DNA from: Poriferisphaera corsica
Lineage (GTDB): Bacteria; Planctomycetota; Phycisphaerae; Phycisphaerales; Phycisphaeraceae
NCBI RefSeq assembly: GCF_007747445.1
Contig: NZ_CP036425.1
Coordinates: 1,968,175-2,032,174, forward strand
Direction of reading: 5' to 3'
DNA: 64,000 bases
Under the pieces are notes generated by a model that was given only the letters and a program-made list of their open reading frames with translations, did not search any database and was not told where the DNA came from. A program made the translations under genes and the position numbers. Below, in pieces: positions 14,044 through 41,189 of this stretch (the stretch's first letter is position 1; each line of letters opens with the position of its first letter).

Positions 14044-15666
14044 TCAGACGCAAAGCGTCTCAGCTTTCGCCTCAATCAAATGATACGCAAACGCGTCCGT
14101 GAGTGCTTCCCATGAAGCATCAACGATATTCTCATTCACACCCACAGTTGTAAAGTGACGCAGTGTTTCCTGATTCTCATCTCTTACTGCAAACTCGATC
14201 ATAACGCGTACTTTCGCAGCAGTCCCTTCGTTCGGGTTCACAACGCGGACCTTATAGTCCATCAACTTGACATCATGCAACTGCGGATACGCATGCTGCA
14301 GCGCTTTTCGCAGCGCGCCATCCAACGCATTCACCGGGCCATCCCCCTCAGCAACCGTGTGTTCGTAATCATCTCCGACCTTCACCTTGACGATCGCTTC
14401 AGTTGACGATGCATTCCCATTATTCTTCAGGATCACGCAACGATAATGATCCAAATGCCAGAAGTCCGGGCACTGATTCATCGCCTTATAAAGCAGCAAT
14501 TCAAACGACGCTTCCGCCGCCTCAAACTGATACCCCTTGTTTTCCAGTACCTGCACGCGATCCAAAACTTCACGCTGCAAATCGCGATTGTTCTCAATAT
14601 CAAATTTTTTACCCAGTGTCGCCGCAATATTCGAAGCGCCCGACAACTCACTCACCAAAATTCGTCTCGAATTCCCCACACTCTCCGGCGTCACATGCTC
14701 ATACGAATGCGCGATCCGCTGAACCGCATGCACATGCATCCCGCCCTTATGGGCAAACGCCCCCGACCCAACATACGGCTGCCCCGGCACCAAATTCTGG
14801 TTCGCAAGCTCATACACATACCGTGATAGCTCTGTCAGATGCAGATTTGAATCTTCGCGCTCAAGCGCCTCAAATCCGAGCTTCAACTTCAAATTCGCCA
14901 CCACCGTGATCAAATCGACATTCCCGCAGCGTTCGCCTATCCCATTGATAGTTCCTTGCACCTGCACCGCACCCGCTCTTACAGCAACCAGCGAGTTTGC
15001 GACAGCCAAGCCACAATCGTTATGTGTATGGATCGCTATATTGGCCTCAGGCAATGTTTCTTTCAGCCTTTTGATCGTCGTCAACACAAACTCTGGCATC
15101 GACCCGCCATTTGTATCACACAGCACCAGCCGCGTTGCACCGCCCGCTAGCGCAGCCTTCAATGTCTGTATTGCATATTCAGGATTCGCCTTGAACCCAT
15201 CAAAGAAATGCTCCGCATCATAAAACACCTGCTCTACATGATCATGACCCGTACAAAACGCAATCGAGTCCTCGATCATTGCCAAGTTCTCTTCACGGCT
15301 TATCCCAAGCACTTCATCAACGTGTAAATCCCATGTCTTTCCTACAATCGTGATCACCGGCGACTTCGAATCGACCAGCGCATTCATCCCCACATCATCC
15401 TTCGCCTTAATCCCTTTTCGACGCGTCATCCCAAAAGCACACACTTTCGCATGCTTCAGATCCAAATCTCTCACCTGCTCAAAGTATGCCACGTCCTTCG
15501 GGTTCGATAGCGGATACCCACCCTCAATATAATCAAACCCAAGCTCGTCCAGCTTTTGTGTAATCTTCAGCTTGTCCACCAGCGATAACGTTACCCCCTC
15601 GCCCTGCGTCCCGTCACGCAGCGTCGTGTCATAGATCTCAATCCGTCTTGGTTGCTCGGTGCTCAT
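14044..15666 (-). CDS. cimA: (R)-citramalate synthase
   Basis: 540 residues from the ATG at 15666; an upstream GTG at 15696 would add ten residues. CimA condenses pyruvate and acetyl-CoA to citramalate, the threonine-independent route to 2-oxobutyrate and isoleucine. YDTTLRDGTQGEG (12-24) is the HMGL catalytic start, EGGYPLSNPKD (48-58) is the CimA-type version of this segment, and HTHNDCGLAVANSL carries the metal-binding His residues. The C-terminal ~130 residues form the LeuA-type allosteric domain. The Ile-rich leader and attenuator just upstream favour CimA over 2-isopropylmalate or homocitrate synthase. Confidence 0.92.
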   Translation of the reverse strand: MSTEQPRRIEIYDTTLRDGTQGEGVTLSLVDKLKITQKLDELGFDYIEGGYPLSNPKDVAYFEQVRDLDLKHAKVCAFGMTRRKGIKAKDDVGMNALVDSKSPVITIVGKTWDLHVDEVLGISREENLAMIEDSIAFCTGHDHVEQVFYDAEHFFDGFKANPEYAIQTLKAALAGGATRLVLCDTNGGSMPEFVLTTIKRLKETLPEANIAIHTHNDCGLAVANSLVAVRAGAVQVQGTINGIGERCGNVDLITVVANLKLKLGFEALEREDSNLHLTELSRYVYELANQNLVPGQPYVGSGAFAHKGGMHVHAVQRIAHSYEHVTPESVGNSRRILVSELSGASNIAATLGKKFDIENNRDLQREVLDRVQVLENKGYQFEAAEASFELLLYKAMNQCPDFWHLDHYRCVILKNNGNASSTEAIVKVKVGDDYEHTVAEGDGPVNALDGALRKALQHAYPQLHDVKLMDYKVRVVNPNEGTAAKVRVMIEFAVRDENQETLRHFTTVGVNENIVDASWEALTDAFAYHLIEAKAETLCV

Positions 15667-15714
15667 AGCGATCTCGTTTTCTTTTGGATTACTCACTCAG
15701 GTCCCAGGCGTCAC

Positions 15715-15740
15715 AAAAAAACCCTACCATCTTGGTAGGG
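15715..15740 (-). terminator. Attenuator terminator in the cimA leader
   Basis: CCCTACCA (minus strand, 15740-15733) pairs perfectly with TGGTAGGG (15729-15722) around a three-base loop, followed by seven T residues (15721-15715). It lies about 50 bases before the cimA ATG and after the leader ORF stop. The same CCCTAC arm can instead pair with GTAGGGC of the leader ORF end (15776-15770). Confidence 0.88.
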
Positions 15741-15769
15741 CTCTAGTTGGTTTATTTGAACGACAACCG

Positions 15770-15786
15770 GCCCTACATCGGGTAGG
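15770..15786 (-). promoter_or_regulatory. Antiterminator/protector segments of the cimA attenuator
   Basis: Segment 1 CCTAC (15786-15782) and segment 2 GTAGG (15776-15772) form a protector hairpin with loop CCGAT. Segment 2 extended, GTAGGGC (15776-15770), is the exact complement of segment 3, GCCCTAC (15741-15735), giving the antiterminator. Segment 3 with segment 4 is the terminator. The leader stop codon TAG (15775-15773) lies inside segment 2, so a ribosome finishing the peptide would mask it and allow termination. Confidence 0.75.
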
Positions 15787-15832
15787 TAATAATAATGGCG
15801 ATGGCGATAATGCTATTATTCGCAGTTGTCAT
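15773..15832 (-). CDS. cimA leader peptide (Ile-rich attenuation peptide)
   Basis: A 19-codon ORF reading MTTANNSIIAIAIIITYPM, with six Ile codons in an eight-codon run (ATT ATC GCC ATC GCC ATT ATT ATT), then a TAG stop. It ends 33 bases before the terminator stem and precedes cimA, an isoleucine-pathway gene. No Shine-Dalgarno sequence precedes it, but the inferred promoter would start the transcript at or within a base or two of the ATG, so it may be translated leaderless. Seen directly: ORF, codon content and alternative pairings. Inferred: ribosome stalling on Ile codons when charged tRNA-Ile is scarce, favouring the antiterminator. Confidence 0.8.
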   Translation of the reverse strand: MTTANNSIIAIAIIITYPM

Positions 15833-15839
15833 AAAAAGA

Positions 15840-15867
15840 ATTGTAACGCTTCTGCAAACCCTAGCAA
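15840..15867 (-). promoter_or_regulatory. Putative sigma-70 promoter of the cimA leader
   Basis: Minus strand: TTGCTA (15867-15862), a 16-base spacer, then TACAAT (15845-15840). These are four and five matches to the -35 and -10 consensus. The start site would fall about seven bases downstream, beside the leader ATG at 15832. Confidence 0.5.
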
Positions 15868-39764: not shown

Positions 39765-41189
39765 TTATGGAATGATAAGCCAGGTGGCGAGGCCGAAGAT
39801 GAGCGCGAAGCCGCAAACGTCGGTGATGGTAGTGAGAATTGGCCCGGAAGCCATGGCGGGGTCCATTTTGAGACCTTTGAGTACGAGTGGAACCGTGCCA
39901 CCGATGATGACGGCAATGATGCAATTGAAGAAGAATGCGAGTGCCACGACGAGGCCAAGCATTGGTGCGATATTGGGTTGGCCTTGTAGTGGGCCAAGGT
40001 CAAAGCTGCCGACACCCCACGCGAGTAAGCCGATCAGTATTCCAAGGATCAAGCCATTGATGATGCCGACCGCAGCTTCCTTGATAACAGTTCGCCAGAT
40101 GTCGGTTGGGCGGACAAGGCCGAGTGCTAACTCGCGCATAGAGACGGCAACAGCTTGGTTGCCTGAGCAGCCGCACATGTCGGAGATCATGGGCATGAAA
40201 ACAACGAGTGCGACGATCTGTGAAATCGTATTTTGGTAATAGATTAAAACACCAGCAGCGATGAGGTTGAGGAAAATGTTTGGGCCAAGAAAAGCGAGGC
40301 GGCGAGCGGCGCGCGGGAATGTGGGCATGGTACGCATTTCGTCGCCAGCGATGATGCCGCCGAGTCGGAGGAGTTGGCGTTCAGAACGGTCGCCAAGTGC
40401 TTCTTCCATGTCGGCGCGCTTTAGGACGCCGACCATTTTGTTTTGCTCGTCGAGTACGGGAACGGCGTTAAAAAAGATGGCGTCGAAGAAGTCTTCGAGG
40501 AAGTCGAGGTGGTCGTTGACGTGAACAAATTTTGGGGAGGACATCATGATGTCTTTGACTTTGACTTCGGGGCGACACATGACCATGTCACGCATGCGAA
40601 CAACGCCAAGGAGTTCTTCCTGCGGGTTCACGACATAGAGGTATTGGACGTCGTATTCGTGATATTCTTCTGCATTTTGACGGATATTGTCGGCCATATC
40701 GCCGACGGTGGTGTCGCCGAGGAAGGTGAGGAATTCGGTGACCATGAGGCCGCCAGCGGTATCGCTGTCGTATTTGGATAGAAGCCTGACATCTTCGGCT
40801 TCCTCAGGCTCCATTTTTTCAATAATGGCTTCGGCGTCATCGTCGTCGAGTTCGCCGATGATGTCGGCCTGTTCGTCGGACGGTAGTTCGTCGATAATAT
40901 CGGCTGCGTCATCGGGGTGGAGTTCCTCGATAATGTCGGCGGCTTGTTGGTGAGAGAGTTCTTCGACGATCCAGGCGGCGGCGTCGGCGGGGAGCCGAGT
41001 GAGGAGGCTTTTCTGATCCTCTTCATCAAGTAGCGAGATGGTACGGGCCATTTCGCCGGAGGGGATTTCGTAGACGAAAGATTCGAGTTTGTGGTTATCC
41101 GAGGTCGAAAGAATCGCTTCGAGCTGTTCGATAGGCTCGAGTTTAGGATCTGTGATGGATGGCTTTGATTGCTCTGGCATAGCTGGCAT
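39765..41189 (-). CDS. mgtE: Magnesium transporter MgtE
   Basis: 474 residues. Cytosolic N domain with the repeated acidic helices characteristic of MgtE (QQAADIIEELHPDDAADIIDELPSDEQADIIGEL is part of it; positions about 78-125), a CBS pair (about 145-260), then five membrane helices from about 295. The membrane part carries FMPMISDMCGCSGNQAVAV, the MgtE pore signature around GNxGxQ (here GCSGNQA), and KMDPAMASGPILTTITDVCGF near the end. A Mg2+-gated channel. No M-box-like leader recognised upstream. Confidence 0.95.
   Translation of the reverse strand: MPAMPEQSKPSITDPKLEPIEQLEAILSTSDNHKLESFVYEIPSGEMARTISLLDEEDQKSLLTRLPADAAAWIVEELSHQQAADIIEELHPDDAADIIDELPSDEQADIIGELDDDDAEAIIEKMEPEEAEDVRLLSKYDSDTAGGLMVTEFLTFLGDTTVGDMADNIRQNAEEYHEYDVQYLYVVNPQEELLGVVRMRDMVMCRPEVKVKDIMMSSPKFVHVNDHLDFLEDFFDAIFFNAVPVLDEQNKMVGVLKRADMEEALGDRSERQLLRLGGIIAGDEMRTMPTFPRAARRLAFLGPNIFLNLIAAGVLIYYQNTISQIVALVVFMPMISDMCGCSGNQAVAVSMRELALGLVRPTDIWRTVIKEAAVGIINGLILGILIGLLAWGVGSFDLGPLQGQPNIAPMLGLVVALAFFFNCIIAVIIGGTVPLVLKGLKMDPAMASGPILTTITDVCGFALIFGLATWLIIP

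Follow-up and report, generated by a model that had tools for sequence, protein, structure and literature searches.

Ribosome-mediated attenuators like those of the trp, his, leu, thr, and ilv operons of enterobacteria combine a leader peptide rich in codons for the end product with mutually exclusive terminator and antiterminator structures ahead of a biosynthetic gene, and in the trp leader of E. coli the leader stop codon lies between segments 1 and 2. For ilvBNC of C. glutamicum, the accessible parts of two reports describe a short leader with mixed Ile, Val, and Leu codons together with a terminator and an antiterminator (PMC11857589, PMC10272879). A comparative study of Actinobacteria, as far as its available text goes, presents leader peptides and the LEU element before branched-chain genes, with a pseudoknot at leuA where other attenuator elements are missing (PMC1262725). 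Short leader genes near structural genes have been compiled with Planctomycetes included, though the available sections of that work hold no cimA attenuator (PMC4833913), and another paper, in its accessible portion, only cites the Corynebacterium attenuation work (PMC13158618). The original prediction for the locus studied here knew of no such description for cimA in a planctomycete, and in the open-licence full texts searched we likewise found no described cimA attenuator and, judging by titles and abstracts, no described attenuator in Planctomycetota.

The leader of cimA, encoding citramalate synthase, on the minus strand of our window (the whole 64-kb stretch of DNA that was analysed) resembles the enterobacterial attenuators in its end-product-rich peptide, its exclusive hairpins, and the biosynthetic gene downstream, whose product belongs to the pathway of the leader's amino acid. 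It differs from them in the gene and the phylum (Planctomycetota), in a stop codon that in this group often falls into the antiterminator arm, and in that a conserved protector was not found. Compared to ilvBNC, the leader has mainly Ile codons and belongs to another gene and phylum. Sequence comparison and structure prediction give Ile-specific codons, two mutually exclusive pairings, covariation, and a fitting geometry, and we consider it highly likely that this leader controls cimA by ribosome-mediated transcription attenuation in response to charged tRNA-Ile. This would place classical attenuation at citramalate synthase and in Planctomycetota.

Promoter-like site, open reading frame (ORF), antiterminator arm, terminator hairpin, and cimA follow each other in this order (Table 1). 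The interval that had been singled out begins at the -35 box of the promoter-like site, which is weak taken alone (a shuffled 551-base region yields 0.7 such sites on average) and whose -10 box lies 7 nt before the leader ATG. The proposed Ile-rich ORF with its six Ile codons was confirmed and its segments could be located, including antiterminator 2:3, terminator 3:4 with its T-run, and the placement of the stop codon inside segment 2. GTAGGGC and GCCCTACC are separated by a spacer of 28 nt, and GCCCTACC and TGGTAGGG by 4 nt, followed directly by seven T. The terminator has a predicted folding energy of -16.3 kcal/mol (z -5.4) and the antiterminator one of -15.9 kcal/mol (z -3.95), the latter being longer than the 7 bp first proposed because a further stretch pairs above it. 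A simple terminator scan listed no terminator in the leader region, presumably because it counts part of the T-run as stem. A scan of all 64 kb on both strands for the same architecture, with one residue of any kind filling at least 5 of 20 codons and with hairpin and helix scores of at least 17, gave two units, the cimA leader and one Arg-rich match at 40409 with a helix at the cut-off.

Table 1. Coordinates of the cimA leader elements in the window
Feature	Position	Strand	Details
Promoter-like site	15840..15867	-	-35 box TTGCTA at 15867, 16-nt spacer, -10 box TACAAT ending at 15840; 9/12 consensus matches
Leader ORF MTTANNSIIAIAIIITYPM	15773..15832	-	ATG at 15832, stop TAG at 15775-15773; 19 codons
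Ile codons of the leader ORF	15811-15806, 15802-15800, 15796-15788	-	Codons 8, 9, 11, 13, 14, 15
Segment 1 CCTAC	15786-15782	-	Candidate protector with segment 2; conservation beyond chance not found in relatives
Segment 2 GTAGGGC	15776-15770	-	5' arm of the antiterminator; contains the leader stop TAG
Segment 3 GCCCTACC	15741-15734	-	Common to antiterminator and terminator
Segment 4 TGGTAGGG	15729-15722	-	3' arm of the terminator
T7 run	15721-15715	-	Predicted intrinsic terminator
cimA	14044..15666	-	Citramalate synthase; TIGR00977, 641.7 bits (cut-off 450); alternative start GTG at 15696

The assignment of the downstream gene as cimA held up, with the listed LeuA family models all below their cut-offs for its product. 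Its supposed role as the isoleucine-specific entry enzyme needs qualifying, since the window's genome (a single contig of 4,291,168 bases) carries two threonine-dehydratase-like genes above the TIGR01127 cut-off, so that cimA may not be the sole entry into isoleucine synthesis.

For a comparative view, CimA proteins were searched in 397 genomes of the class (294 with a match) and 294 genomes of the phylum (260 with a match), where the weaker matches are probably LeuA. Upstream DNA was taken from 110 of the class matches listed (best first, some skipped), one of which was too short, from 40 outside the class, and from the best 80 of 547 named records, of which 26 repeated earlier ones and 54 were new. 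The resulting 203 cimA upstreams (109 + 40 + 54) still contain near-identical relatives. We scored a unit when a hairpin with T-run lay within 300 nt of the gene and was preceded, at a distance of 15 to 75 nt, by the end of an ORF whose last 20 codons include at least 3 for Ile. A T-tailed hairpin was found in 140/203 upstreams and the full unit in 112 (50 from the class, 16 others, and 46 named records), while 91 fell short, 63 of these lacking a hairpin by the rule used. When at least 5 identical residues in 20 codons were demanded, Ile scored in 67/203 upstreams and the runner-up, Ala, in 15. This enrichment is bound to the reading frame: for 53 of the 75 class upstreams with a hairpin, those whose stop lies in segment 2 or starts at most 3 nt before it, Ile accounts for 19.2% of the last 20 codons ahead of the stop, compared to 2.5% and 0.7% when the two remaining frames are read. 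On the reverse strand, a unit appeared in 1/203 upstreams, with hairpins in only 16. The best control is leuA, where the same program, run on upstreams from 26 of the 27 genomes searched, found a hairpin in 23/26 and a Leu-rich leader in 21/26 but an Ile-rich one in 0/26. Upstreams of trpE (8), ilvD (8), hisG (8), and ilvB (11) gave 0/35 for Ile, Leu, or Val, though these test little because only 5 of them have a hairpin. As judged from these sequences, the Ile-leader pattern at cimA exceeds chance. Among five ilvA-like upstreams we found no unit with a hairpin, L289 having an Ile-rich ORF without one. Attenuator candidates sought at trpE, ilvD, and hisG in 8 genomes each came to nothing; the trpE upstream of L282 has an ORF with three Trp near a weak hairpin that we did not count as an attenuator.

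The Leu codons at leuA, set in the same layout, also bear on a reading of the cimA leader in which the ORF is not translated and the RNA acts as a riboswitch, a T-box, or a protein-binding leader responding to isoleucine, to tRNA, or to some other signal. Any leader RNA with alternative pairing would look alike, yet no Rfam family reached its gathering score in the window stretch or in sets of 15 and 10 loci, and by eye the non-Ile residues of the peptides vary between lineages (although leaders of family f14 share VRAGII, and those of f10 share ITPRQRG-like ends), which together make such a leader extremely unlikely. With an E-value threshold, Rfam returned only weak, unrelated, or Thr_leader-like matches for the window and the 15 loci; over the window leader, Thr_leader (RF00506) scored 26.2 bits against a gathering score of 55, and the leader is thus not a member of that family.

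The two pairings of the proposed attenuator were followed through 108 of the 112 units, leaving out L145, L153, L165, and L207 (no anchor, possibly accidental), which gave 57 distinct cores. Each core combines three stretches of 7 nt, taken from around the stop, from segment 3, and from segment 4; Ile content was the sole basis for picking the stop, and the 2:3 pairing played no part in choosing the cores. The terminator cores are 97.2% paired with two-sided changes at 6/7 pairs and a covariation of 0.709 versus 0.300 in shuffles, partly by construction because the arms were chosen as a hairpin. The antiterminator cores are 73.2% paired (90% when the hairpin type dictated the stop type) with two-sided changes at 5/7 pairs, and their covariation of 0.412, versus 0.256 in shuffles, was reached by 0/500 shuffles, while versions slid out of register gave 0.059 to 0.172. 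Several points weigh against 2:3: the number of further pair types was not above shuffles (264/500), 37/500 shuffles reached its number of two-sided pairs, the stop codon fixes or restricts three of the columns, and counts of this kind are inflated by relatedness among the sequences. The contrast between the arm types of different lineages also supports the antiterminator. Arms of type CCTC[AG]G reach a helix score of 17.4 with segment 2 windows of their own type versus 10.9 to 13.2 with others, CCCTG[CT] arms 20.1 versus 9.0 to 17.2, and CCCTGAG-like arms 19.6 versus 12.8 to 18.1; the window's CCCTACC arm is not separated from the CCCTG[CT] type (19.0 with each). Ranking each own window against swapped ones is weak over 90 units (a median of 0.19 of the swapped windows perform equally well) because members of one lineage have similar arms. 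Many relatives thus keep the Ile-rich ORF and both pairings 2:3 and 3:4. The protector 1:2 (CCTAC/GTAGG) that had been proposed alongside them is present in the window, but over the 112 units such hairpins are no better than shuffles, of which a median of 0.53 reach the observed score; in only 5/112 units did at most 0.05 of the shuffles do so.

Across the 112 units, the best segment 2 contains the entire leader stop in 69, compared to 10.4% expected for random positions, and in 24 further units segment 2 begins at most 12 nt after the stop. Its identity follows the arm: CCCT[GA]-kind arms go with TAG in 55/64 units and CCTC[AG]G arms with TGA in 28/33, so that the stop seems to serve as both signal and pairing partner. 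The T of the stop faces G in 40 of the 57 distinct cores and A in 17, with A in the window. It is in this light that we judge whether the hairpin could be a constitutive terminator or a leftover operon end next to an accidental Ile ORF. Hairpins with T-runs are generally common between genes, but the gene upstream of the leader, COX15/CtaA, is divergent on the plus strand, so that the hairpin does not terminate an operon lying upstream, and many genomes repeat the Ile enrichment, the alternative pairing, and the placement of the stop; we therefore give this explanation hardly any credence. Side by side with these observations, leaders of family f12 (L092, L099, L103) have TGA or TAA followed directly by CCCC, which could face a G-rich segment 3; their best segment 2 takes in the TGA in L092 and begins directly behind the TAA in L099, and in L103 it is located elsewhere.

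The geometry of the units fits ribosome-mediated attenuation. The last Ile codon begins a median of 15 nt before segment 2 (quartiles 13 to 19; 73 of 90 units), which is about the reach of a stalled ribosome as given by its footprint, and the stop lies a median of 34 nt before segment 3. When the window transcript is folded up to segment 3, the predicted probability of 2:3 is 0.99 with a ribosome stalled at Ile codon 8, 11, 13, or 15, 0.71 without a ribosome, and 0 with a ribosome at the stop; in this last state, the full transcript forms 3:4 with a probability of 1. At equilibrium, a stall at Ile13 or Ile15 still leaves the terminator of the full transcript ahead of the antiterminator, and a stall at Ile8 or Ile11 makes the two about equal, so that antitermination would need a kinetic decision; timing is what decides in known attenuators. 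In a two-state folding of all 112 units, segment 3 is paired upstream at 0.73 when the ribosome is stalled compared to 0.17 when it is at the stop, and a difference above 0.3 was seen in the expected direction in 90 units, in the opposite one in 2, and not clearly in 20. The Ile ORF, the covariation of 2:3 and 3:4, and the folding all support the attenuation logic that had been suggested for this leader, from which we infer the behaviour of the RNA, that is, transcript start, leader translation, stalling, termination, and the response to isoleucine. RNA polymerase would start almost at the leader AUG, and a ribosome would begin the leader peptide at once. When isoleucine is short, this ribosome would stall at the Ile codons with its leading edge short of segment 2, leaving segment 2 free to pair with segment 3 as the antiterminator so that transcription continues into cimA. 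When isoleucine is plentiful, the ribosome would reach the UAG stop inside segment 2 and mask it, segment 3 would pair with segment 4, and transcription would end at the T-run. By this mechanism, cimA is very probably switched on when isoleucine is scarce.

The proposed start close to the leader AUG finds parallels among the relatives. An in-frame ATG exists in 106/112 units and a promoter-like site with at least 9/12 matches in 65, and in 40/112 units the -10 box ends 5 to 10 nt before the leader ATG, compared to 14/2100 in shuffles, a contrast that is somewhat flattered because the shuffles were anchored on one ATG while the search was free among ATGs. Transcripts start 6 to 8 nt after the -10 box, and with this spacing they would begin at or beside the leader ATG. 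Only 2 of these 40 units have a Shine-Dalgarno-like 4-mer before the leader ATG, which says little because only 7/40 have one before cimA. This arrangement suggests that the leader ORF is near-leaderless. Together with the stop-in-arm rule, such a start may make the cimA attenuator a variant of classical attenuation, and we lean towards the view that this variant, with the stop as an antiterminator pairing element, a UAG or UGA identity co-evolving with the terminator, and a near-leaderless leader, operates over much of Planctomycetota. A precedent for such a start is ilvBNC of C. glutamicum, whose leader transcript, according to the accessible part of the report, starts one nucleotide from the start codon (PMC11857589).

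The leaders at leuA and ilvB suggest a branched-chain set in which cimA has an Ile leader, leuA a Leu leader, and ilvB perhaps a Val leader with a different layout. Upstream of leuA in the window's own genome (L260 of G000) and in a genus mate (L263 of G001) lies a Leu-rich leader, MNNERSIRLSSIQLDLGLSLGLLILRS and a relative of it, with a terminator-like hairpin between leader and leuA, and such a unit is found in 21/26 leuA upstreams. These planctomycete leuA hairpins set them apart from the leuA leaders of Actinobacteria, as far as the latter are covered in the available text of PMC1262725. The ilvB leaders bear on the idea that the cimA leader ORF acts by Rho-dependent termination or translation coupling with the hairpin being secondary: a Val-rich leader without a detected terminator precedes ilvB in the same family, so that more than one leader mechanism may coexist. 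At cimA, however, the terminator ends a median of 59.5 nt ahead of the aligned start of the gene, and the terminator arm shows both pairing and covariation with segment 2, so that we hold such a mode of action to be very unlikely. The ilvB leaders themselves (L123, L119, L122, L124, L125) are small Val-rich ORFs 210 to 380 nt upstream of the gene that end in VVVI, VLVI, VAVS, or VVVS with TGA, followed by a near-invariant block TGAGCGG..GACCCGC; no terminator was detected behind this block, and they apparently represent another leader mechanism.

If the cimA leader is indeed a ribosome-mediated attenuator, it would work only with a ribosome close behind RNA polymerase, and its wide upkeep would mean transcription-translation coupling at these genes. 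Coupling in planctomycetes would then perhaps extend to lineages with elaborate internal membranes; a spatial separation of transcription and translation has reportedly been claimed for Gemmata. The cimA leader could thus serve as a natural reporter of whether ribosomes trail RNA polymerase in planctomycetes.

On the level of sequence, the case stands for a predicted isoleucine attenuator at cimA that occurs in much of the phylum and has a leucine counterpart at leuA. By the family labels of our genome search, most sampled members have the unit in f3 (4/4), f1 (10/14), f10 (14/19), f50 (10/11), f91 (2/2), and f12 (3/4), of which f50 and f91 lie outside the window's class. The unit is found in part of f14 (10/25), f8 (5/20), f16 (4/9), f68 (1/4), and f35 (1/4) and in none of the sampled members of f22 (0/4) and f72 (0/2), and 24 further families sampled once or twice gave 2 matches in all. 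Among the named records, the unit occurs for example in Phycisphaeraceae, Planctomycetaceae, Schlesneria, and Fuerstiella, and also at two near-identical loci (labelled Gemmataceae and Singulisphaera) whose leader bears Ile and Val; no hairpin was found in the named records L181, L185, L196, L199, L236, and L238. Some leaders carry additional motifs. Those of families f8 and f14 (e.g., L063, L027, and L087) are longer and contain an inverted repeat GCGGAC ... GTCCGCGC with its halves 49 to 79 nt apart, which is present in 23 of the 27 upstreams containing GTCCGCGC, is kept in L084 where no T-run hairpin was found, and could possibly form a pause or start-masking stem ahead of the Ile codons. 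The peptide core AQGVRV is common to the cimA leaders of L220, L221, L223, and L243, which have fewer Ile codons and several for Val, and this core is encoded over a small inverted repeat, GCGCA GGGAG TGCGC, whose last base is T in L221 and L223.
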